From: Candidatus Fermentibacteraceae bacterium | Lineage (GTDB): Bacteria; Fermentibacterota; Fermentibacteria; Fermentibacterales; JCC-6 | Assembly: GCA_027067855.1 (NCBI GenBank) | Contig: JAMOUX010000013.1 | Location: 1-64,000 of the forward strand | Length of the DNA stretch: 64,000 bases | Direction of reading: 5' to 3' | Shown: piece after piece, positions 108 through 39,239 of the stretch | Numbering within the stretch: the stretch's first letter is position 1 | Layout: each line of letters begins with the position of its first letter | Translations under genes and position numbers: made by a program | The notes under the pieces: generated by a model | What the model was told of the DNA's origin: nothing | The model's database searches: none | Seen by the model: the letters and a program-made list of their open reading frames with translations, nothing else

Positions 108-461
108 TCAGAACAGCATGAGCTGTTCCGGTTTTTTCTCCTCCGGTTTTCTTTCCTTGACCTGCCGCCGTCCCGAGAAGGTGAGCATATCTCCGAACTG
201 CTTGTCCGTCACCATGCATACCCGTACTTCCCCTTCCGGGGGCAGCGCGAGGGCTATGTTGTTAAGGACGGCTTTCGCCGCGTCCCGCGAGGGGCAGAAC
301 TTGGCGTACACCGAGTACTGGAGCATGGTGAACCCCCTGGAAAGCAGGTGTTTCCTGAAAGCGGCGGCCTTTTTCCTCTGGGACGGCTTCACCACGGGCA
401 GGTCGAACATCGCCATCAGCCACATTACCTTCATCCCCGAGATGCTTCTGTTGTAATCCAT
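108..461 (-). CDS. cas2: CRISPR-associated endoribonuclease/integrase subunit Cas2 (type II-C)
   Basis: Cas2 dimerises and bridges two Cas1 dimers in the complex that inserts new spacers. The 117-residue product has the Cas2 ferredoxin-like start, with the conserved Asp in WLMAMFDLPV, then KHLLSRGFTMLQYSVYAKF, a hallmark of type II Cas2. The C-terminus is a Lys/Glu-rich tail ending in EQLMLF. The start at 461 lies 8 bases after the cas1 stop. A second in-frame ATG at 434 (MKVMWLM) is equally possible and would give 108 residues. It is the last gene of a cas9-cas1-cas2 operon. The longer open frame reaching 812 is only antisense-like read-through across cas1 and was not used. Confidence 0.93.
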   Translation of the reverse strand: MDYNRSISGMKVMWLMAMFDLPVVKPSQRKKAAAFRKHLLSRGFTMLQYSVYAKFCPSRDAAKAVLNNIALALPPEGEVRVCMVTDKQFGDMLTFSGRRQVKERKPEEKKPEQLMLF

Positions 462-469
462 CCGGTCCG

Positions 470-1384
470 TTACCTGTCCAGAATCCTCTCCGCCACCAGC
501 TTCTCCGGAAGAGGCAGCGCCGCGTTTTCGCCGATGAACCTTTTCCTCAGCGCCACGCTGAGGGCGGACAGGGCGTCGAACACGGTTACGAGCATTCCGT
601 TCACGAGTATCCTCCTGGTGAAGACCGAGAGTAATTCGGCCTTTATTTTCCGGTCCAGGACGTGGTAAACAGGCTTGTGTTTTCCGCATATTTTCCACGC
701 CGTGTAGTCGACCAGGGGCCTGAACGGCTCCATCACGTCGCTCGCCAGGCAGAACGGGTTGTTCCTGTGGCGGTGGTTGATCCCGATGGTGGGATGCAGG
801 CCCGCTCCGCATACCGCCCTGGAAGCCATGGCGTGGAGTATGGAGTAACCGTAGTTCAGGAAGATGTTGGCGTCGTCGCCGTACCTGTCCCTCTTTCTTA
901 CCAGGCCAAGGCTGCTCCAGTATTTCTGGGCGGCGAATCCTTCCCTGTTCGTGGTGTCTCCGGAGCGCACGGCGGAGGCGACCGCGGCGAGGCCCGCGTC
1001 ATCTCCCCTTGTTTCCTTCAGTATCTCGGCCTGCCTCAGGATCTTGCATTTCACTATCTCTTTCCAGGCACGCTTGCGGACCGGCAGCGGCGCCAGGGCC
1101 TGCGCCCTGAAGAATTCCGTCTGCCTGGCGTTGCCGCTAAGGGGAAGGAACATTCCCGAGGGAAGGTGCCTGCCGTCGGTCACCACTACCGGAACGTTGC
1201 CCGCCGCAAGGGCGGAAAGCACGGGTTGGGTGACGGTTAGCCGGGCGTTGTCCAGGATGAGCACGGCCACGTCTTCCACGGGTATGGTTACGCCGTCAGT
1301 TCCTTCCAGGTCCAGCGCCACGAGGCCGTTCTCGTACCGTATCCTGCCCCCGGAGGAGGAAACGTCTATTATCCTGTCATGCAT
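470..1384 (-). CDS. cas1: CRISPR-associated endonuclease Cas1 (type II-C)
   Basis: Metal-dependent integrase of spacer acquisition. The 304-residue length is typical of type II Cas1. The expected acidic/His active site is readable: Glu148 in NREGFAAQKYW, His204 in GLHPTIGINHR and Asp216 in LASDVMEPFRP. The N-terminal beta-domain precedes an alpha-helical catalytic domain. The start overlaps the end of cas9 by 8 bases, so translation is coupled. No csn2 or cas4 accompanies it, which is what defines subtype II-C. Confidence 0.96.
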   Translation of the reverse strand: MHDRIIDVSSSGGRIRYENGLVALDLEGTDGVTIPVEDVAVLILDNARLTVTQPVLSALAAGNVPVVVTDGRHLPSGMFLPLSGNARQTEFFRAQALAPLPVRKRAWKEIVKCKILRQAEILKETRGDDAGLAAVASAVRSGDTTNREGFAAQKYWSSLGLVRKRDRYGDDANIFLNYGYSILHAMASRAVCGAGLHPTIGINHRHRNNPFCLASDVMEPFRPLVDYTAWKICGKHKPVYHVLDRKIKAELLSVFTRRILVNGMLVTVFDALSALSVALRKRFIGENAALPLPEKLVAERILDR

Positions 1385-4300
1385 TGGAATTCCTGAGTTC
1401 GCCGAGGGGGGTTATCGTGAACTTTTTCACGTTGGAAGTGCGCATGGAGTTTGGACGCTTGGTGAACCATTCTCCGGATGACTTTATTTCCTTTTTAAGC
1501 CTGGCGTCGTTCAGCCTTACGAACGACATCTGTTTTGTCTGGGGTACATCCCTGGTTATTACCAGTTCCCTTTTTCCCTTTATGTCCATCTCGAATACGT
1601 CGCCGCGTTGTACCGTCATAACGTACCTGGCGGTGGGGGTGTTCACCTTGTTCACCAGGGGTTCGCCGTTCATGAGGCGCCTTCGGGCTTCCAGGAGGGT
1701 GACGACTTCGCCGTCCCATTTTTTCACCTCGCCCCGTTTGTCCAGCACGGCGTAGATCATCATGTGGTGGTTGTTGCCGGGCACTACGTTGCGGGCGCGC
1801 CTGCCTTCTCCCACGCGTATCGTGTTCTGCTTGCGGATGATTTTCACCTTCTTTATGGGTATTCTTTTGGCGCCGTCCGCGCTCACTATTTCGGGAAGGT
1901 TTTCGCCGTTCCTGAACGCCCGCCTGGGATCGTCGATTCCGAGTTCGTCCAGCTTGCGGATAATCGCCTCGCGCACGCCCTTGTCCACCACTTTTGGAAT
2001 CTTGTTTTTTTCGAGGTTTTCAAGGGGTATCCTGACATGGCGGTACATGCCGGTTTTCCCGTTCACCTTGTGTTCGTATTCCTTCGAGTAGAAAGTCTCC
2101 TCGTGGAATGCTCCCCTGACTTTTCTCGGTATCTTGTGGGAGACCTTGATTTTGCCTATCACCCGCCTGACGTCCTCATCGAACGTATTCCATTTATCGG
2201 GCAGGATTCCCTTTCCCGTGCCGAAGCGGATGTAATCCCGGCGGTTTTCCAGTTCCTTGGCTATCTCGGTGAGTTTCTTCACCATTCCGGGGGAGGTCAT
2301 TCCAATCGCTATGGCGTCCACCGCGTGATGCCTGTGGTCGTTCCTGGTCTTTACGTCGCCGTCGTTAAGTATGCCGTTGAGGTTGTACGCGCTGCGTACC
2401 TTGTACGTCAGCCCTCCCGAAAGAACCTGGACGCGTTTCCTGCCGTCTATAGAAGTGACGGAGCCGCCGTACAGCATGCCGAGGTACGCGGCCGCTTCCT
2501 TCGCGGCGTACCTGGTGTCGTTCAGTTGCCTTTGCGTGAAATCGGCGAACCGGTCTTCGACTTCCTCGGGAGTCATCCTGAAGCGCCTGAGTTTTTCCTT
2601 GGCGAGCCGGCCGTTGAACTTTGCCACCCTGTCCAGTATCTCGTCGTACCGGGGGGTTCCGTGATAGGCTTCGTAAGGAGTGCGGTTACGCTTCACGTTG
2701 CGGTTTTCCTCGTGGTAGCACAGGGTCTTGTTCAGGAAGGAATCGTCGAGGGAACGGCTTCTGGGAATGATGTGCTCTATGTCGAACTGGGGATGCGGAC
2801 CGAAGAGTGTCCGGATCGAGATCGACCTTCCGGTGTACGGGCAGCGCCATCCGCATTCCTCGGCGAGAAGAACCTTCGTCGTATCGGTCCTGCCGGGAGT
2901 CATGCCGGGGAAGACGTCCCTTATTTTTTCGGCGGCTTTTTCCCTCTGTTTTTCCAGGTCCCTGTTCCTCTTTATTATTTCCTTCTTCCGGTTCGCCGAG
3001 AGCTTCATCTCCCTCGCCATCTCGAGGCGGATGATCCCGGGTTTGCCGTATTTCCTTATTACCGCGTTTACGACCCGCCTGAGTTCGGTGAGGCTGCGCT
3101 CCACCACCGGGTTCCGGAGATCGATGGACGACGTGTCGAGCCCGGGCAGCAATTCATGAACGATCCCGTCGGACTTGAAGGCTTCCGGGTATATTTCCTT
3201 TACCGCGCTACCGTATGACCATCCTTCCCGAAGCAGCGGAAGCAGCTTGCACAGGGCCTTGTAAGAAAGGTTGCAGTAATCTTCCGGGAGTTTGATATCC
3301 GCGAAGGCTTCGGCTTCTTCCTGTTCGAGGTTCCACTTTCTCATAGCCTTCCTCACCAGGGGTTCCCGCTTTTCGAAGGACCTGAGGTCGTGGAGGATAT
3401 CCTCCTTATCCCGGGGTGAGAATTCGTTCCACGAGTCACCGAAAACGGCGAGCAGGCTTGAAAGCGTCTTGTTGCCTTTCAGTGTTTTTTCTCCGCCGTC
3501 CTCTATGGTGAACTTGGACCCCTTCGGCAGGCCCAGGAGTTTCTTGGCCTTGGAAATTTTGATGTTGCCGTGCCTGTCGAGATCGCCGGTTTCGCCCATC
3601 ATCACCCGGTAGAGATTTTCCCACTCTTCGGCGCTGAGTTCCCTTAATTCCCCGTCCGGCTCTATTACCTTCAGGTTGGTAATGGTTTGCAGAATACGGA
3701 ATTCCTGGGCTTCGAACCTGTACCACGGGCATCGCCTCTTGTTCTTCTCCAGGGCGCAATGGCCGATGAGGCTTTTTACGCTCTTGAGTTTTCTCTGGAA
3801 GAATATCGCTTTTTCTATTGACTTTCTCAGGTCGGGAGTTACGAGATGCGGGTGATTGTTCATGATGAGATCGAATTCATGCCTGTACATGTCCCTGGAA
3901 GTCCATAATCCGCGTATCCTGTCGCGTGTAGGGTCCCTGTAGGCGAAGTATTCCCCCAGGGTTCGCGCCCCGGTTTCCTCCATCTTTCCGCGGAGTTCCG
4001 ATATGCCCTGCTTGACCTGTCCCAGTTCCTTTTCGTCCACCAGGGATTTCCTGTTGCTCCAGAACCCCCGTCTCTGGGCGAGGTGGTAAACGGCCCTGCC
4101 GAGGAGGTGGGGAGGAAGCTTTCCGTTTATGGCCAGCGCCCGCAGGAAGTATGGATACGTATGGGCGAGGACCTCCCTGGAGGGACGTTCCCCTTCGGGT
4201 ACGGCAAGGCAGAACTTCCGTACTTCGGCGTCCAGGTCCAGGATTATCTTCTCTATATCGTCACCTTCGGGAAGCAGACCCGCCCTCTGCAGGATGTGCT

Positions 4301-4559
4301 GGAGTTTCAGCATTCTTCTCCTGCGACGGTCGAGGTTTCGCCTGATGAGTCTCTTGGCCCGCCTTTCGGCGCACCTGGACGTGGCATTGCCCGTGGAGAT
4401 GTCCCCGTCCATGCCCGCCTCGAATATTCTTACCCCCGCGTCCGTTATTCCGGTGACTTCCCTGGAATCCGCATCGTATCCAAGGAGGGCCCAACCCACG
4501 GAGTTCGAACCGATGTCGATTCCAAGAATCATATCGTCTTTGAACACGTACCCCTCCAT
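1377..4559 (-). CDS. cas9: CRISPR-associated endonuclease Cas9, compact type II-C
   Basis: RNA-guided double-strand DNA nuclease. At 1060 residues it is in the compact II-C size range. RuvC-I is ILGIDIGSNSVGWAL with Asp15. An Arg-rich bridge helix follows (RCAERRAKRLIRRN, about residues 62-75). RuvC-II has Glu513 in IRLEMAREM. HNH has His596 in FDIEHIIPRSR, and RuvC-III has His745 and Asp748 in RHHAVDAIAIG. All catalytic positions are present, so the protein should cut. The second ATG (residue 10, MILGIDIG) is an alternative start, and neither start has a clear ribosome site. The gene heads the cas operon and diverges from the tracrRNA candidate across about 50 bases. The PAM-interacting C-terminal region (about 850-1060) cannot be assigned a PAM by eye. 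Confidence 0.97.
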   Translation of the reverse strand: MEGYVFKDDMILGIDIGSNSVGWALLGYDADSREVTGITDAGVRIFEAGMDGDISTGNATSRCAERRAKRLIRRNLDRRRRRMLKLQHILQRAGLLPEGDDIEKIILDLDAEVRKFCLAVPEGERPSREVLAHTYPYFLRALAINGKLPPHLLGRAVYHLAQRRGFWSNRKSLVDEKELGQVKQGISELRGKMEETGARTLGEYFAYRDPTRDRIRGLWTSRDMYRHEFDLIMNNHPHLVTPDLRKSIEKAIFFQRKLKSVKSLIGHCALEKNKRRCPWYRFEAQEFRILQTITNLKVIEPDGELRELSAEEWENLYRVMMGETGDLDRHGNIKISKAKKLLGLPKGSKFTIEDGGEKTLKGNKTLSSLLAVFGDSWNEFSPRDKEDILHDLRSFEKREPLVRKAMRKWNLEQEEAEAFADIKLPEDYCNLSYKALCKLLPLLREGWSYGSAVKEIYPEAFKSDGIVHELLPGLDTSSIDLRNPVVERSLTELRRVVNAVIRKYGKPGIIRLEMAREMKLSANRKKEIIKRNRDLEKQREKAAEKIRDVFPGMTPGRTDTTKVLLAEECGWRCPYTGRSISIRTLFGPHPQFDIEHIIPRSRSLDDSFLNKTLCYHEENRNVKRNRTPYEAYHGTPRYDEILDRVAKFNGRLAKEKLRRFRMTPEEVEDRFADFTQRQLNDTRYAAKEAAAYLGMLYGGSVTSIDGRKRVQVLSGGLTYKVRSAYNLNGILNDGDVKTRNDHRHHAVDAIAIGMTSPGMVKKLTEIAKELENRRDYIRFGTGKGILPDKWNTFDEDVRRVIGKIKVSHKIPRKVRGAFHEETFYSKEYEHKVNGKTGMYRHVRIPLENLEKNKIPKVVDKGVREAIIRKLDELGIDDPRRAFRNGENLPEIVSADGAKRIPIKKVKIIRKQNTIRVGEGRRARNVVPGNNHHMMIYAVLDKRGEVKKWDGEVVTLLEARRRLMNGEPLVNKVNTPTARYVMTVQRGDVFEMDIKGKRELVITRDVPQTKQMSFVRLNDARLKKEIKSSGEWFTKRPNSMRTSNVKKFTITPLGELRNSNA

Positions 4560-7060: not shown

Positions 7061-7786
7061 ATGCAACTCGCCGAGGTCACCACGGAGGAAGTCGCGAAGT
7101 ACCTGGAGAAGAGGAAGCTGGTGCTGGTGCCCATGGGCTCCCTGGAGCAGCACTGGAAGGCGGCTCCCCTGGGCTGCGATACGATAATCCCGGTGAAGTT
7201 GTGCGCGGAGGTTGGTGACAGGACGGGTGCGGCGGTGGCCCCGGCCATCCCGTACGGGATGTCGGAACATCACATGGAATTCGCCGGTACGGTGAGCCTG
7301 GCTCCCGAAACCCTGGAACTCGTGGTGGCGGATGTCCTGGAATCGCTCTACGTCCACGGGTTTCGCAGGATGGTTCTGCTCAGCGGACACGGCGGCAACG
7401 GCCCTTCCGCGGAGAGGGCGATTCGGAGAGTATGTTCCCGCCGCGGCGGGCTGGATGCCAGGTATCTTCTTTACAGGAACCTGCCCGGCGCAGTTTCCAG
7501 GCAGAAAGAGCTGTTCTGTCCGGATCCCGGTTACCACGTCACCGTGACGGAGGTTTCCATGATATGGTACCTCCTGGACAGGGAAATTCCTGATTTTCCC
7601 AGGATAAAGTTTCCTCCGGAACCTTCCCGCGGCGAAGTTCGGGGCAGGCGTGAGTGGAAGCTGCGTTACCCGGACGGTGGAGCCGGGTCGGACCTGCGGT
7701 ACGTGTCGACGGAGAAGGGAGCCGAATTTTTCCGGTTCCTGGTGGAGAGTTTCTGCGATTACCTGGACGAAATGGAGGGAAACTGA
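7061..7786 (+). CDS. Creatininase-family metal-dependent amidohydrolase
   Basis: A 241-residue protein of the creatininase family (PF02633), which hydrolyses cyclic or formyl amides at a two-metal site. Visible metal ligands are Glu29 and His31 (GSLEQHWKAAP), Asp40, the GHGGN motif at 109-113, and a later His/Glu pair in GYHVTVTEVSM. The ATG at 7061 has a GGGAGG ribosome site 5 bases away; an ATG at 7025 is in frame but has none. The family includes creatininase, the mycofactocin protein MftE and archaeal ArfB of riboflavin/F420 synthesis, so the divergent CofE-like gene is suggestive. Its stop overlaps the start of the Fur-family gene. Confidence 0.82.
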   Translation: MQLAEVTTEEVAKYLEKRKLVLVPMGSLEQHWKAAPLGCDTIIPVKLCAEVGDRTGAAVAPAIPYGMSEHHMEFAGTVSLAPETLELVVADVLESLYVHGFRRMVLLSGHGGNGPSAERAIRRVCSRRGGLDARYLLYRNLPGAVSRQKELFCPDPGYHVTVTEVSMIWYLLDREIPDFPRIKFPPEPSRGEVRGRREWKLRYPDGGAGSDLRYVSTEKGAEFFRFLVESFCDYLDEMEGN

Positions 7787-8217
7787 TGCCGCACTGCCAT
7801 ACGTTCCTGGAGGAGTTGCGAAGAAGGGGGTACAGGATAACCCGCCAGAGGAAGGCCGTTGTGGAAGTGGTGGCCCACAGCGGACGCCATATGACCGCGG
7901 AAGAGGTGGCGTCGGAACTTTCCCGGAAACAGGAGAAGGCGGATCTCGCCACCGTGTACAGGTCCCTGGAACTCCTGGTGATGAACGGCCTGGCCAGCAA
8001 GCTGGACCTGGGCGACGGCAGGACGGCCTATGCCACGGGCAGGCACGGCCCGCATGCCCACCTGGTCTGCAGGCGGTGCGGAAAGATAACGGAGGTATCG
8101 GAAGAAGATATCTCGCGCATCGTATCGTTCCTTGAAGAAAAGTACGATTTCGACAGCCGGCCTTACCATTTCTCGCTGCACGGCCTTTGTTCTTCCTGCA
8201 GGACGGAGGCCGGTTGA
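7786..8217 (+). CDS. Fur-family metalloregulator, possibly nickel-responsive
   Basis: A 143-residue winged-helix repressor. It has an N-terminal DNA-binding domain (about 5-75, with DLATVYRSLELL as recognition region) and a dimerisation/metal domain with two CxxC structural-zinc pairs, Cys95/Cys98 and Cys135/Cys138. The sensing site is His-rich (His87, His90, His92 in GRHGPHAHLVC). It lacks the Asp that marks PerR, with Thr84 at that place. The H..H.H pattern and its position in front of a nickel/cobalt importer favour a Nur- or Zur-type sensor. It starts in a TGATG overlap with the creatininase gene, and the next operon's promoter begins inside its stop codon. Confidence 0.85.
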   Translation: MPHCHTFLEELRRRGYRITRQRKAVVEVVAHSGRHMTAEEVASELSRKQEKADLATVYRSLELLVMNGLASKLDLGDGRTAYATGRHGPHAHLVCRRCGKITEVSEEDISRIVSFLEEKYDFDSRPYHFSLHGLCSSCRTEAG

Positions 8218-8241
8218 CCCGTTCTTTTCAGATCGTATAAT
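8214..8241 (+). promoter_or_regulatory. Sigma-70-type promoter of the metal-uptake operon
   Basis: TTGACC at 8214-8219 and a perfect TATAAT at 8236-8241 are separated by 16 bases. The -35 box overlaps the stop codon of the Fur-family gene. Transcription would start near 8248, inside the palindrome that follows. Confidence 0.82.
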
Positions 8242-8242
8242 A

Positions 8243-8260
8243 ATTGCAAATATTTGCAAT
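8243..8260 (+). promoter_or_regulatory. Perfect 18-bp palindromic operator, probably bound by the adjacent Fur-family protein
   Basis: ATTGCAAATATTTGCAAT is identical to its own reverse complement over all 18 bases. It begins one base after the -10 box and covers the predicted transcription start, an ideal place for repression. It is of a size and A/T-rich type seen for Fur-family boxes but differs in core sequence from the classical Fur box. Confidence 0.82.
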
Positions 8261-8293
8261 AAGGATCCGATCATACCTTCGAAAGGAGAACGG

Positions 8294-9103
8294 GTGGATG
8301 CGGCAAGGCTTGCAGCCCGGGGGCTGATCGTATTTTTGTGGATTCTCGTTGCGGGTTGCGGCGGGGAAAACGATACGGCCGCCCTGGAAACGGGAACATT
8401 GCGCTTCGTGGCCGACGGTGAGGATTTCGTAAGGAACGGGTTTACCGCTTCCGACGGCTGGAGGCTCACCTTCAGGCATTTCTACGTGACCCTGGAGGAT
8501 GTGAAGGCGTACCGGACCGATCCCCCGTACGATCCCCGTTCCGGGAAGGAAATAGACGGAGACGCGGCGGCATCCCTGCCCGGGAGGCACACCGTCGATC
8601 TCGCCGTCGGCGAACAGCCGGTTACGGTGGGAGTGGTCGGGGGAGTGCCGACAGGGCACTACAACGCGATTTCCTGGAACATGGTCCCCGCTACGGAGGG
8701 GCCGTCGAAGGGTTATTCCATCTACATGGACGTGCTGGCGGAAAAGGACGGTGTGAGTTACGGGTTCGTTCTCGGTATCGAGGATTCCTACCGGTATTGC
8801 GGAGGGGAGTACGTGGGCGACCGACGTAAGGGCTTCGTGGAGCCGGATGTCCCCGGAGAACTGGAAATGACCTTCCACGTGGATCACCTTTTCGGTGACG
8901 GCGAGCAGCCGGAGGATTCCGAGATCAACCGGGCGGCGTTGGGATTCGGACCGTTCGCCGGGCTGGCGGCCGGGGGCGTGGAGCGGGGGGATCTGCTTTC
9001 CCTTGCGAACCGCCTGTCTCCCGATGATTACGGGAAGCTGTCGGATATACTGCCGACCCTGGGCCATACCGGGGAAGGGCACTGCCTGTGCGTTGTGCGC
9101 TAG
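8294..9103 (+). CDS. Lipoprotein heading the nickel/cobalt uptake operon, putative metal-binding
   Basis: A 269-residue protein starting with GTG at 8294 behind AAAGGAG. It has a type II signal peptide with lipobox LVAGC (Cys22), so it should be membrane-anchored outside the cytoplasm. I cannot name the family with certainty. The layout (beta-rich start, LTFRHFYVTLEDVKAY, then GVPTGHYNAISW) is reminiscent of MbnP-type metal-binding proteins. Candidate ligands are the histidines in FHVDHLFGD, Cys in RYCGGEY and the C-terminal GHTGEGHCLC. It is first in the operon controlled by the palindromic operator and overlaps the next gene, which supports a role in capturing metal before transport. Confidence 0.6.
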   Translation: MDAARLAARGLIVFLWILVAGCGGENDTAALETGTLRFVADGEDFVRNGFTASDGWRLTFRHFYVTLEDVKAYRTDPPYDPRSGKEIDGDAAASLPGRHTVDLAVGEQPVTVGVVGGVPTGHYNAISWNMVPATEGPSKGYSIYMDVLAEKDGVSYGFVLGIEDSYRYCGGEYVGDRRKGFVEPDVPGELEMTFHVDHLFGDGEQPEDSEINRAALGFGPFAGLAAGGVERGDLLSLANRLSPDDYGKLSDILPTLGHTGEGHCLCVVR

Positions 9104-9540
9104 CATCGCGCCTGTTCGTCCTGCTGGTTCCGGTGATGGTGGTATCAACGGCGCGGGCACACGGCGTCAGGGTGTTTTGGGAACTGAAAGGAGACTCGGT
9201 TTTCGTTCACGCATCGTTCGATGATGAGTCTCCCATGGCCGGCGCCCGGGTGGCGGTTTTTTCCGGGGCCGAACCTTCCGAACCCTGGATCACCGGTTAC
9301 ACCGACGATGAGGGCTGCTTCGTATTCGTCCCCGACAGGAGGGAATCGTCCCGGTGGGACGTACGGGTCAGGAAGGCCGGTCACGGCGACATAGTACATG
9401 TTTCTCTCGATGCCGGGGGAAACTGTTCCGGCGGGAGGAGCGGTTTCTCGATCCCGCAGATAATCATAATGTCTGCATGCGTGATATGGGGGTTCATCGG
9501 AACGGCCTTCTTCTTCTCGGCGCGGCGGAGGCACGGCTGA
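9088..9540 (+). CDS. NikL/CbiL-like accessory subunit of the nickel ECF transporter
   Basis: A 150-residue protein with a signal peptide (residues 1-24, cut after ...STARA, leaving mature N-terminal His-Gly), an extracytoplasmic beta-sandwich-like domain (RVAVF, GYTDDEGCFVF) and a single C-terminal transmembrane helix (about 124-144). This matches the NikL-type extra components encoded with NikMQO nickel transporters, which favours nickel over cobalt. It begins with GTG at 9088 inside the end of the lipoprotein gene and overlaps CbiM by one base (TGATG). Assignment rests on architecture and neighbours. Confidence 0.65.
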   Translation: MRCALASRLFVLLVPVMVVSTARAHGVRVFWELKGDSVFVHASFDDESPMAGARVAVFSGAEPSEPWITGYTDDEGCFVFVPDRRESSRWDVRVRKAGHGDIVHVSLDAGGNCSGGRSGFSIPQIIIMSACVIWGFIGTAFFFSARRRHG

Positions 9541-10181
9541 TGCATGTTTCCGACGGGATGCTTCCGCCCGGGTTCTGTGCGGGAGGATACGCGGGATCGG
9601 CCGCGCTGGCATGGCTGAGCGTAACCCGGGCGAAGAAAGTGTACGGAAACATCGAAAGGATGGTACCCAGGGCATCGGTGATGGCGGCCGCTTTCTTTGT
9701 GGTTTCCTGGATACACGTGCCCTTTCCGGTGGTTAGCGTGCATCCCCTCCTGGTTGGATTAATGGGTGCGTTGCTCGGATGGATGGCTTTCCCGGCCGTC
9801 ATGATCGCCCTGTTTTTCCAGGCCGTCATGTTCGGCCATGGAGGATTCACCACCCTGGGAGTCAATTCCGTGACCATGGGAGGGGCCGCGCTGGTTTCCA
9901 TGGCGGTGTACCGCGCCATCGGAAGAGGTTCCGGGGGGAAACGTGAATTCACGGCAGGCTTGGCCGCCGGTTTCACCGGCGTGGTGTCGGCCGCTGCGGC
10001 CACGACCGCGGTACTTCTTCTGGGCCTGCCTTCCTATGTTGATCCGGAGGCGGAACGGGCGGCCGTTTCGACCATGGTTCTCTGTCATGTGCCCCTTGCC
10101 GTGGTGGAGGGCCTGTTTACCGCGTCGGTGATGAAATTCCTCGCCGCGGTTTCTCCGGAGATGGTGGAGGGAAATGGCTGA
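9540..10181 (+). CDS. cbiM: Substrate-binding membrane (S) component CbiM/NikM of an ECF nickel/cobalt transporter
   Basis: A 213-residue polytopic membrane protein. Its N-terminus is MHVSDGMLPPG, the signature of CbiM/NikM, in which the amino group and His2 bind Co(II) or Ni(II). A second conserved block, FGHGGFTTLGVNSVTMG, is also present. The ATG at 9540 shares a base with the preceding stop; the correct start is fixed by the need for His at position 2. It works with CbiQ and CbiO, encoded immediately downstream. Confidence 0.93.
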   Translation: MHVSDGMLPPGFCAGGYAGSAALAWLSVTRAKKVYGNIERMVPRASVMAAAFFVVSWIHVPFPVVSVHPLLVGLMGALLGWMAFPAVMIALFFQAVMFGHGGFTTLGVNSVTMGGAALVSMAVYRAIGRGSGGKREFTAGLAAGFTGVVSAAAATTAVLLLGLPSYVDPEAERAAVSTMVLCHVPLAVVEGLFTASVMKFLAAVSPEMVEGNG

Positions 10182-10920
10182 AGGAATTTCCCGGAAGGGT
10201 CTGCTGGTGAAATGGGACGCAGCCTGGAAGGTGCCGTCCATCCTGCTGTTGATGATGTCCATGGCTTTTACGGGAAAACCGGAATATTTCGTTCTTTCCC
10301 CGTTCATCGCCGGAATTTTCACGGTGGTGGCGGGGGTGAATTATGCGAGACTCTTCAAAGTTCTCAAAGCGCCTCTTGCCCTGGCGGTCGCCATGGGGTG
10401 TTTCATGGTATTCTTTTCCGGCGGCGAGCCGTATTCCGCGGGTTTCCAGGCTGTTAGCGGGGATGGCGCGTTGCAGGCCGCGGGTATGGTGAGCAGGGTT
10501 TTCAGTGTTGTGACCATGGGATTCGTGATGGTGACGACCACGCCGGCGGCCGGGCTTCCCGCTTCCATGAGGCGACTCAGGGTACCGGATATCATGATTG
10601 ATATGGCGATGCTCACCGGACGGTACGTGATGGTTATCGGCGAGGATTACAGGAGGATGGAGGTCGCCCGCAGGCTGCGCGGAGGGAGACGCATCCTGTC
10701 GCCGGGGGCGTTCCTGGAAGTGATTCCACAAGTGGCCGCCGGTCTCCTGGTGAGGAGTTTCGAGAGGTCGGAGAACGTATTCAGGGTCATGAAACTGAGA
10801 GGTTACGGGGCTTCGAATGAAAGAGTGCGCGAGACCGTTGGCCCCCGCCGCGTCGACCTCATGCTCAGCGGTGTTGCGATATTGCTGTCCGCGGCGCTCG
10901 TGGTGCCGGAGTTGTTGTGA
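10174..10920 (+). CDS. cbiQ: Transmembrane (T) component CbiQ of the ECF nickel/cobalt transporter
   Basis: A 248-residue energy-coupling transmembrane protein. Several hydrophobic helices fill residues 20-130. The conserved cytoplasmic coupling motifs follow: RRLRVPDIMID and the Ala-Arg-Arg-x-Arg-Gly helix (MEVARRLRGG, about 167-176), with a second version near the end (FRVMKLRGYG). These helices dock into the grooves of the ATPase. It overlaps the end of cbiM by 8 bases. Confidence 0.9.
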   Translation: MAEGISRKGLLVKWDAAWKVPSILLLMMSMAFTGKPEYFVLSPFIAGIFTVVAGVNYARLFKVLKAPLALAVAMGCFMVFFSGGEPYSAGFQAVSGDGALQAAGMVSRVFSVVTMGFVMVTTTPAAGLPASMRRLRVPDIMIDMAMLTGRYVMVIGEDYRRMEVARRLRGGRRILSPGAFLEVIPQVAAGLLVRSFERSENVFRVMKLRGYGASNERVRETVGPRRVDLMLSGVAILLSAALVVPELL

Positions 10921-11681
10921 GAACCCGGGGATCGTCCGCGGTCGGAGTTCGGGAAATAATCTTTTCGTATCCCGGAAGGGAACCTCTGCTGCGCGGATTG
11001 GACCTGGAAATCGCACGGGGTGAAAAAGTCGGCCTGATAGGGCCCAACGGTTCCGGCAAGACCACCCTCATGCTGCTCATCGCGGGAGTGCTTGAACCCG
11101 GATCGGGAACGGTGCAGGTGGAGGGACGTTCCGTGGTTCCCGGCAGGTTCAACCCCGACCTGGGTTTCGTCTTCCAGAATCCCGACGACCAGCTCTTTTG
11201 TCCCACGGTGCTGGACGATCTCCTGTTCGGCCTGCTTAACAAGGGGATATCCCCTTCCCGAAGCAGGGCCATGGCGATGGAATACCTGGAGAAGACGGGT
11301 ATGCTCCACCTGGAAGGAATACCACCCCATCACCTGTCGGGGGGAGAGAAGAGAATGGTTTCCATTGCAGGAATCATGATCACCGATCCGTCGGTGGTGC
11401 TCATGGATGAACCCGAATCCAGCCTGGACTGCCGATGGAAGAGGAAGTTGATGGGATTCCTGTCCGAAACGGACAAGACGCTGCTCGTTGCGTCCCACGA
11501 CCTGGAATTCCTCCTGGAGACCTGCGGAAGGACGGTGATGCTCGACGGCGGAAAGATATGCGCCGACGGACCGTCGGCGGAGATCATGGGTGACGTGGAG
11601 CTGATGCGGGCCCACGGTTTCGAGAAGCCTTACTCCCTGGTCTCCCGCACGGAACCGCACGGAAAAGGTTTTCCGGTATAA
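10917..11681 (+). CDS. cbiO: ATPase (A) component CbiO of the ECF nickel/cobalt transporter
   Basis: A 254-residue ABC ATPase. Walker A is GPNGSGKTT (42-50), the Q-loop FVFQNPDDQLF is of the typical ECF type, the signature is LSGGEKR, Walker B is VVLMDEPES and the switch His is in VASHD. It starts with GTG at 10917, overlapping the cbiQ stop (GTGA). Only one ATPase is encoded, so it probably forms a homodimer. It is the last gene of the operon. Confidence 0.93.
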   Translation: MRTRGSSAVGVREIIFSYPGREPLLRGLDLEIARGEKVGLIGPNGSGKTTLMLLIAGVLEPGSGTVQVEGRSVVPGRFNPDLGFVFQNPDDQLFCPTVLDDLLFGLLNKGISPSRSRAMAMEYLEKTGMLHLEGIPPHHLSGGEKRMVSIAGIMITDPSVVLMDEPESSLDCRWKRKLMGFLSETDKTLLVASHDLEFLLETCGRTVMLDGGKICADGPSAEIMGDVELMRAHGFEKPYSLVSRTEPHGKGFPV

Positions 11682-31272: not shown

Positions 31273-31429
31273 GATTATCCTTTCATCGCTTTTTCCTTGT
31301 TAGGGTATGGAACATGCGCCCATCCCTCAAAAACAAAATATCTTCCGAAGGTGGAGTCGAGTCAAGGTAAAAAAGCGCTTCCGGGAGAGGAATGTTATAA
31401 TTCATTTTCACCAGCCCGGAGGTCCGTCC

Positions 31430-32140
31430 TTGAGAATATTCGCATTGGGAGATCTTCACCTGTCCTTCTCGTCCGGTAAGCCCATGGACGTGTTCGGGGA
31501 GCACTGGAAAGATCACCACGAGATCGTGGAAAGACACTGGAGGGCCCTGGTGTCCGGTGAAGACGTAGTATTGGTTCCCGGTGACGTTTCCTGGGCGATG
31601 ACCATGGAGGATGCCCGTCCCGATCTGGAGTGGCTGGCCGCCTTGCCCGGCAGGAAGATTCTCGTCAAGGGCAACCACGATTATTGGTGGAGTTCCATGA
31701 CCCGTTTGGTCAGGTTTCTTCCCCCGGGAATCATTCCCCTGCAATATTCCGCCGTGAAGGTGGGTAACCTGGTGGTGGCTGGAACCAGGGGTTGGCTGTC
31801 GCCGCTGTCGGAAGAATACCGGGAGGAGAGAGACGGCAGGATCTATCGCAGGGAACTGCTGAGATTGGAGATGGCCCTGGATGCCGCGGCCGGGTTGGCC
31901 GGAGAAGACGACGATCTCCTGGTAATGATGCATTTTCCGCCTGTCGTATCCGGCAGGCCCACGGATTTTTTCCCACTCATGGTGGAGAGGGGGGTGCGGA
32001 CATGCGTCTACGGCCACCTGCACGGGCAGAAGTGGGACCGTCGCGTGGACGGTGAAATGGAAGGTTTGAGGTACGTGCTGGTATCCGCGGACAGGTTGGG
32101 CTTCAGACCGCTGGAGATCGGGGAGGCGCGATGCTGCTGA
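31430..32140 (+). CDS. Calcineurin-like metallophosphoesterase
   Basis: A 236-residue two-metal phosphoesterase with all five family motifs: GDLHLSF, VLVPGDVSWAM, VKGNHDYWW, VMMHFPPV and VYGHLHGQ. It belongs to the short bacterial branch in which D-x-H, G-D, G-N-H-D and G-H-x-H are kept without extra domains. The start is a TTG at 31430, 7 bases after GGAGG; a TATAAT stands at 31396-31401. Its end overlaps the ABC-F gene by 10 bases, so the two are cotranscribed. Confidence 0.86.
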   Translation: MRIFALGDLHLSFSSGKPMDVFGEHWKDHHEIVERHWRALVSGEDVVLVPGDVSWAMTMEDARPDLEWLAALPGRKILVKGNHDYWWSSMTRLVRFLPPGIIPLQYSAVKVGNLVVAGTRGWLSPLSEEYREERDGRIYRRELLRLEMALDAAAGLAGEDDDLLVMMHFPPVVSGRPTDFFPLMVERGVRTCVYGHLHGQKWDRRVDGEMEGLRYVLVSADRLGFRPLEIGEARCC

Positions 32141-38817: not shown

Positions 38818-38831
38818 CTGATAGAGGAGAA

Positions 38832-39239
38832 ATGCTTAAGAGCAACGGCAGAAGAAACACGAAACAAAGGCAGGCGGTTCTGGCGGCCGTTCGGGAACTG
38901 GGAAACCATCCGACCGCGGAGCAGGTTTACGAGGTGGTGAGGAAACAATTGCCCGGTACCAGTATCAGTACCGTCTACAGGAACCTTGGAATACTTTCGG
39001 AGCAGGGAATGCTCAGGACGGTCACCGGGTTGGGCAGGGAAGTCCATTACGATCACAATACCGGGGTACACTCTCATGTAAAGTGTTCTTCCTGCGGCAG
39101 GATATGCGACGTTATGCTCCGGCGGGAAGATATGCCGAGGTTGACGGAAGAGTGGCTGTGCGGTTACATCTTGGAGGGAATAAGCATCAACTTCATAGGA
39201 AAATGTCCGGAATGTGCCGAAAGGGAGGAGATACGATGA
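38832..39239 (+). CDS. perR: Peroxide-responsive Fur-family repressor PerR
   Basis: A 135-residue Fur-family regulator. All five Bacillus PerR sensing ligands have counterparts at a constant offset of 11: His26 (H37), Asp74 (D85), His80 (H91), His82 (H93) and Asp93 (D104). The Asp at 74 is the residue that separates PerR from Fur and Zur. Two CxxC pairs (Cys85/Cys88 and GKCPECAE) bind structural zinc. The ATG at 38832 follows GAGGAGA. It is first in an operon of eight genes ending at 43629. Confidence 0.9.

Follow-up and report, generated by a model that had tools for sequence, protein, structure and literature searches.

A predicted operator of a Nur-like Fur-family regulator at nickel-importer operons of Fermentibacterota and Chloroflexota

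The review PMC7055735 names a single nickel sensor of the Fur family, Nur. In Streptomyces coelicolor, it represses nikABCDE and sodF (PMC7055735) and its box reads tTGCaa-N5-ttGCAA (PMC3919588). A Ni-site of three histidines has been assigned to this protein, together with a warning about a crystal artefact (PMC7055735). NikR, a ribbon-helix-helix nickel repressor of nikMNQO-type operons, does the job that we predict for the regulator described here, but has an unrelated fold and an unrelated, widely spaced operator, which in deltaproteobacteria is GTGTTAC-N13/14-GTAACAC (PMC545781). More than half of the organisms that encode NikABCDE have no NikR (PMC2667541), which leaves the control of nickel unassigned in a large part of the bacteria. 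Among the transporter components, NikN, NikK and NikL are Ni-specific and CbiN is Co-specific (PMC2667541). For Desulfovibrio Zur, a Fur-family protein, the predicted site is ATGCAACnnnGTTGCAT (PMC545781).

We analyzed a 64-kb stretch of Fermentibacterota DNA, here called the window. A preliminary description had placed a TTGACC-N16-TATAAT promoter, followed by a perfect 18-bp palindrome, between a Fur-family gene and a lipoprotein-NikL-M-Q-O operon. Inspection of the sequence at 8214-8260 and domain searches of the neighboring genes (PF01475, CbiM, CbiQ, ABC ATPase and, below threshold, NikL) bore out this layout (Table 1). The promoter-like site at 8214-8241 matches 11 of 12 consensus bases, with 0.2 such sites expected from shuffles. 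Its TTGACC (8214-8219) overlaps the TGA stop (8215-8217) of the Fur-family gene, and the palindrome begins one base past the TATAAT -10 hexamer. The regulator ATG (7786) in turn overlaps the stop codon of a creatininase-family gene, and the regulator gene of the window's genome has no upstream box of its own in our box search. The transporter encoded by 9540-11681 consists of a NikMQO core (PF01891, PF02361, PF00005) with a sub-threshold NikL-type extra component, which matches NF058648 at 51.6 bits against a curated cut-off of 100 bits. Past NikO, the opposite strand carries a tRNA and a VhuA/VhuG-like [NiFe] hydrogenase.

Table 1. Features of the regulator-transporter locus (window coordinates).
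Feature	Coordinates	Strand	Evidence or remark
Fur-family regulator, 143 aa	7786..8217	+	PF01475 1.4e-26; best PDB match Nur 3EYY; AF2 Fur fold
-35 element TTGACC	8214..8219	+	Sequence; 11/12 promoter-like match; TTGACN kept in relatives
Spacer, 16 nt	8220-8235		Between TTGACC and TATAAT
-10 element TATAAT	8236..8241	+	Sequence; 11/12 promoter-like match
Predicted operator, perfect 18-bp palindrome ATTGCAAATATTTGCAAT	8243..8260	.	Predicted to cover transcription start
Lipoprotein, first gene of controlled operon, GTG start	8294..9103	+	No Pfam/NCBIfam family; weak MbnP-like fold
NikL-like ECF transporter subunit	9088..9540	+	NCBIfam NF058648 1.1e-13, below curated cut-off
NikM/CbiM substrate-binding membrane subunit	9540..10181	+	PF01891 4.3e-49
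NikQ/CbiQ transmembrane subunit	10174..10920	+	PF02361 1.1e-23
NikO/CbiO ATPase	10917..11681	+	PF00005 1e-26; TIGR04520 3.6e-49, below cut-off

On the evidence of sequence comparison, the palindrome very probably serves as operator for the Fur-family protein encoded next to it, and this protein would act as a Nur-like, nickel co-repressed regulator of the nickel importer. At up to three mismatches, ATTGCAAATATTTGCAAT has this single match in the window (chance expectation 0.01), and a search of the full genome (1.86 Mb, 98.9% complete) likewise gave no other. When we scanned relatives for the palindrome, as the preliminary description had proposed, almost every orthologous promoter in two phyla proved to carry it rather than to lack it, which agrees with its earlier reading as an operator tied to the adjacent Fur gene and the transporter operon. 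The scan of GTDB genomes and the subsequent alignment yielded 40 loci; those outside the clade defined below encode ordinary Fur proteins. The conserved core obtained from the comparison, TTGCRA-N4-TYGCAA, is common to Fermentibacterota and Chloroflexota, and the A of TTGCAAAT in the window's palindrome is one of its permitted variants. In G006, the promoter palindrome of the orthologous operon reads ATTGCGAATATTCGCAAT; both halves have changed together and perfect symmetry is kept. With up to two mismatches allowed, TTGCRAANNTTYGCAA occurs in the 100 bp before the regulator at 28 of the 32 clade loci, compared to a mean of 0.085 and a maximum of 1 in dinucleotide shuffles, and it is absent upstream of the control genes, namely eight other Fur genes and 18 Fur paralogues of the relatives (0/8 and 0/18). 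Four loci fall below the threshold: L072 and L078 have their box solely at the promoter of the downstream operon, and at L079 and L080 a box with three mismatches precedes the regulator.

The half-sites are separated by four bases in 29/32 loci and in all 10 downstream operon promoters, whereas the N5 spacing of Nur occurs in one locus of 32. The preliminary description had called the palindrome unlike the usual Fur box and possibly a new motif. The spacer is indeed one base shorter, but the half-site equals that of the Nur box (PMC3919588), and we therefore regard the motif as a variant that is not wholly new and the protein as a putative Nur-like nickel repressor outside Actinobacteria.

The number and place of the boxes differ among the relatives. 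Operon promoters of Fermentibacterota often carry a second, overlapping copy at a 16-bp offset, and the L108 genome has a similar pair. In relatives, the same box also precedes the regulator gene, again often with an overlapping second copy 16 bp away. Aegiribacteria-type loci have one box at the regulator and another at the transporter promoter, and the Chloroflexota regulator gene heads an operon of its own. TTGACN is kept about 30-35 bp before the box; in most Chloroflexota orthologues, the box is preceded by TTGACA at a distance of 35 bp and by TATAAT at 13 bp, counted from start to start.

The 7786-8217 protein matches PF01475 at 93.4 bits (gathering score 23.1). Its top PDB match is Nur (3EYY), with 85.5 bits for the single sequence and 146.8 bits by profile, compared to 132.6 bits for the next structure. 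The AF2 model of the 143-aa protein matches Fur/PerR/Nur structures, and this fold comparison does not discriminate between Nur and other Fur proteins. In a tree with few reference rows and some long branches, the regulator group is united with Nur, L105 and L099 at 97/96 support. A Fur protein with 55-64% identity is encoded in 10 of the 39 other genomes (relatives). The start MPHCHT is invariant in eleven aligned Fermentibacterota orthologues, and the clade, made up of Fermentibacterota and Chloroflexota (mostly Anaerolineales), begins with M[P/S/T]HCHT.

Alignment of 30 group members shows which potential metal ligands are retained. The structural zinc site with its two CxxC pairs (C95/C98 and C135/C138) is found in all 30, and H35, H87, H90, H92 and H128 are invariant. 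Of the 27 rows that cover these N-terminal positions, 26 have H3 and 25 have C4; H5 is found in 23/29 and H31 in 26/30 rows. We take the M-site of Nur to be formed by four histidines, H33, H86, H88 and H90 (numbers matched to the 3EYY alignment), and its Ni-site by the three histidines H70, H72 and H126. The four-histidine M-site is incomplete in the group: H35, H90 and H92 occur in 30/30 members, but glycine (G88) replaces H86 in 30/30, and the neighboring invariant H87 is a possible substitute for it. Similarly, one of the three Ni-site histidines is kept (H128, 30/30), while the other two positions are occupied by K72 or R72 in 29/30 and by D74 in 25/30. Because H70 and H72 of the Ni-site and H86 of the M-site are replaced, the nickel-sensing site is probably arranged differently from that of Nur, and the metal specificity is not readable from the Ni-site.

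The regulator thus resembles Nur, its best solved relative and a member of the same tree clade, in the Fur fold, the HxH-C-C pattern, the TTGCAA half-site and the linkage to nickel uptake. It differs in the shorter spacer of its box, in the lysine or arginine, the frequent aspartate and the glycine at Ni- and M-site positions, in its own N-terminal HCH motif and invariant H87, in its predicted target, which is an ECF NikMQO importer and not NikABCDE or superoxide dismutases, and in its hosts, which are Fermentibacterota and Chloroflexota outside Actinobacteria. In view of the box spacing, Ni-site and M-site, we do not file the protein as Nur.

Which metal is sensed is suggested by the neighborhood. 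The preliminary description had proposed nickel, and this is still the most likely metal; in particular, we favor nickel over cobalt from the gene content. The operon contains a NikL-like component and no CbiN was found in it, and in Chloroflexota the PDGLE (NikN) domain is fused to the M subunit in all five proteins tested. CbiC, a marker of corrin synthesis, is absent from the window's genome and from 29 same-order relatives, and no B12 riboswitch was found in the window, so neither CbiN nor the corrin-synthesis setting of a CbiMNQO cobalt transporter accompanies the locus. A [NiFe] hydrogenase is encoded next door, and such hydrogenases occur in most relatives, including relatives without the regulator-nik locus. 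Furthermore, in G025, a same-order genome with NikM but without the regulator, a NikR gene lies at the equivalent place, directly before nikM (PF08753, 1.4e-25). Together with Nur as the best solved relative and a member of the same clade, these components, absences and hydrogenases and the NikR gene of G025 are the basis for our assignment to nickel.

There is a small chance that the operator and the regulator are correctly paired but that cobalt, zinc or iron is sensed and a cobalt or mixed importer is controlled. Sequence is not a reliable guide to metal specificity in the Fur family, the group has not kept the Ni-site specific to Nur, and the NCBIfam label of the M subunit is 'cobalt transporter CbiM'; the lack of CbiC and of a B12 riboswitch, the NikL/PDGLE components in place of CbiN, the NikR gene of G025 and the closeness to Nur all speak against it. 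With respect to zinc, the Desulfovibrio Zur site is likewise predicted for a Fur-family protein, has half-sites of the TGCAA type and lies next to an operon for metal uptake, but it is 17 bp long, has the arms ATGCAAC/GTTGCAT and is linked to znuABC, whereas the neighbor in nearly all our loci with adequate flanks is NikM(N)QO and not a zinc transporter.

Nickel import and the regulator are closely linked. Where the flanks of the clade loci are long enough, NikM, NikQ or NikO adjoins the regulator in nearly all loci of the two phyla. Among 30 same-order genomes, the window's own included, 11 have both the regulator and NikM, three have NikM only, none has the regulator only and 16 have neither (Fisher p 6.7e-6, with relatedness ignored). 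The three genomes with NikM only are G025, G013, where a contig end interrupts the operon, and G002. No genome that carries a regulator orthologue encodes NikR, and PF08753 (the NikR_C domain) is absent from the window's genome, the regulator being a PF01475 protein. G002 has lost the regulator gene, and the promoter that precedes this gene in relatives (GTTGACCGGTCAG...ATAGATATTCCCT) now stands in front of the lipoprotein gene instead. Its -35 and -10 elements are retained but the box has decayed, with 6 mismatches at 14 constrained positions, a case that comes from one draft genome (86% complete, 7% contamination). That the box is kept only where the regulator is kept provides the strongest sequence evidence that the 7786-8217 protein would read it.

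This decay also bears on the notion that the palindrome is the site of a different transcription factor, such as a global regulator, and that the Fur gene lies nearby by chance. We consider this highly unlikely. The box is palindromic like many operators, and direct binding by the 7786-8217 protein is something that we infer; however, the box stands beside this particular Fur clade in two phyla, is missing before other Fur genes and has decayed in the genome from which the regulator gene was deleted. In addition, a search of 17 Chloroflexota genomes for the 18-mer gave eight zero-mismatch sites, and place and sequence assign every one of them to the regulator-nik locus.

That the inverted repeat instead forms an RNA hairpin in read-through transcripts from the Fur gene (a terminator, an attenuator or a Shine-Dalgarno-masking switch) is scarcely credible: the 8218-8300 RNA does fold better than shuffles (z -3.3) and, according to the fold model, the ribosome site before the lipoprotein gene is paired with CCCGUUCU, but most of the relatives that we folded lack this Shine-Dalgarno pairing (e.g., L070 and L073), box positions 6/13 are A-C in 12 of 30 sites, which is unpairable in RNA and fits an R/Y-tolerant protein half-site, no U-tract follows the palindrome, the sole terminator-like match of the scan lies at 8313-8326, and the Chloroflexota box comes directly after the -10 box. 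The modeled fold over the lipoprotein ribosome site may be peculiar to the window's genome.

We propose that the Fur-family protein and the palindrome form a nickel-dependent off-switch. When nickel is sufficient, a metal-loaded dimer of the 7786-8217 protein would bind TTGCRA-N4-TYGCAA, cover the transcription start and block RNA polymerase, and the lipoprotein-NikL-M-Q-O operon would be off. When nickel is short, the protein would be released and the importer made, which would supply the [NiFe] hydrogenase. The site of the block follows from the position of the box, which starts 1-7 bases past the end of the -10 hexamer, so that a bound dimer would hinder RNA polymerase at the start site. 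In relatives with a box before the regulator gene, autoregulation is expected, and the Chloroflexota regulator would control itself. That the protein binds the box directly, that it represses and does not activate, and that nickel is its co-repressor are presumed; the metal would act as a co-repressor by analogy to Nur and NikR (PMC7055735).

The predicted regulon is narrow and consists of the transporter only, plus the regulator gene in relatives. The window's genome contains one strong box. Its 12 further sites with two mismatches are not in excess over the 17 sites of a reversed-pattern control and were rejected as regulon members; likewise, the two-mismatch site at window position 31430 lies inside ORF 31307-32140. 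One-mismatch sites elsewhere in relatives are, where checked, mostly within coding frames. Those at G004:C263, G009:C15, G014:C46 and G016:C86 were treated as chance matches on this ground, and the sites of G004, G014 and G016 fall in the same orthologous protein. The [NiFe] hydrogenase operon has no box. The preliminary description had taken the adjacent hydrogenase operon as a cue to a nickel response, and this tie was overstated: with box-free hydrogenase genes and one strong genomic site, the proximity is physiological context and not regulon membership.

In L118, L115 and L037, a TonB-dependent-receptor-like gene (PF00593; L118:2644-5181, L115:106-2739 and L037:5153-7759) lies just upstream of the regulator and is a candidate outer-membrane nickel receptor. 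No box was found before it in L118, nor upstream at the TonB-receptor promoter of G002.

Operator, regulator and importer travel together in two phyla for which no such system appears to have been described. In the open-licence literature, we found no earlier description of the motif, of Nur outside Actinobacteria or of nickel in Fermentibacter. A bolder reading, for and against which we see about equal weight, is that in Fermentibacterota and Chloroflexota these proteins are nickel sensors and constitute a separate Fur-family clade, the sister group of Nur. This clade would have its own operator RTTGCRANTATTYGCAAT (N4, often occupied by two dimers at a 16-bp distance). Its nickel site would consist of the near-invariant N-terminal H3-C4-(H5) plus H31, H87 and H128 in place of H70/H72, and the clade would replace NikR there as the controller of the nickel importer. 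The locus would represent a second Fur-family solution to nickel control, with a predicted operator, candidate metal ligands and a natural loss case in two mostly uncultured groups. It makes testable how Fur-fold proteins switched from iron or zinc to nickel, and whether this happened once or several times.

PerR belongs to the same superfamily as the regulator but to a separate clade, in which the PerR references group with the other Fur-family protein of the window. The gene for this second protein (38820-39239) is PerR-like by best PDB match and tree, and lies beside rubrerythrin-, ferritin- and desulfoferrodoxin-like ORFs. Such PerR-like paralogues differ from the regulator in having stress-protein neighbors and no regulator-type box upstream. 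In several relatives, paralogues of this clade (L022, L025, L028 and L030) have another palindrome nearby, ATCGGAACTATTCCGAAT, which is perhaps their operator. A third, very divergent Fur-family protein is encoded in the window's genome at G000:C2:45383-45769, with an end branch of 5.2 in the tree. At the start of the window, the minus strand of 108-4559 carries what looks by sequence like a CRISPR-type gene set, with a large Cas9-like ORF (1377-4559) followed by Cas1-like (470-1384) and Cas2-like ORFs.

The family of the operon's first protein, the lipoprotein, has no Pfam or NCBIfam entry and stands beside the regulator in Fermentibacterota only. Counting the codon at 8297 as residue 1, its conserved residues are H61, H194-x-D-H197, H257 and H262-C263-x-C265. 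The AF2 model (pLDDT 86.5) weakly matches the methanobactin-operon protein MbnP (Foldseek E 9.4e-5, TM 0.37, 11% identity). The lipoprotein is possibly an extracytoplasmic nickel-binding protein that takes the place of NikK.
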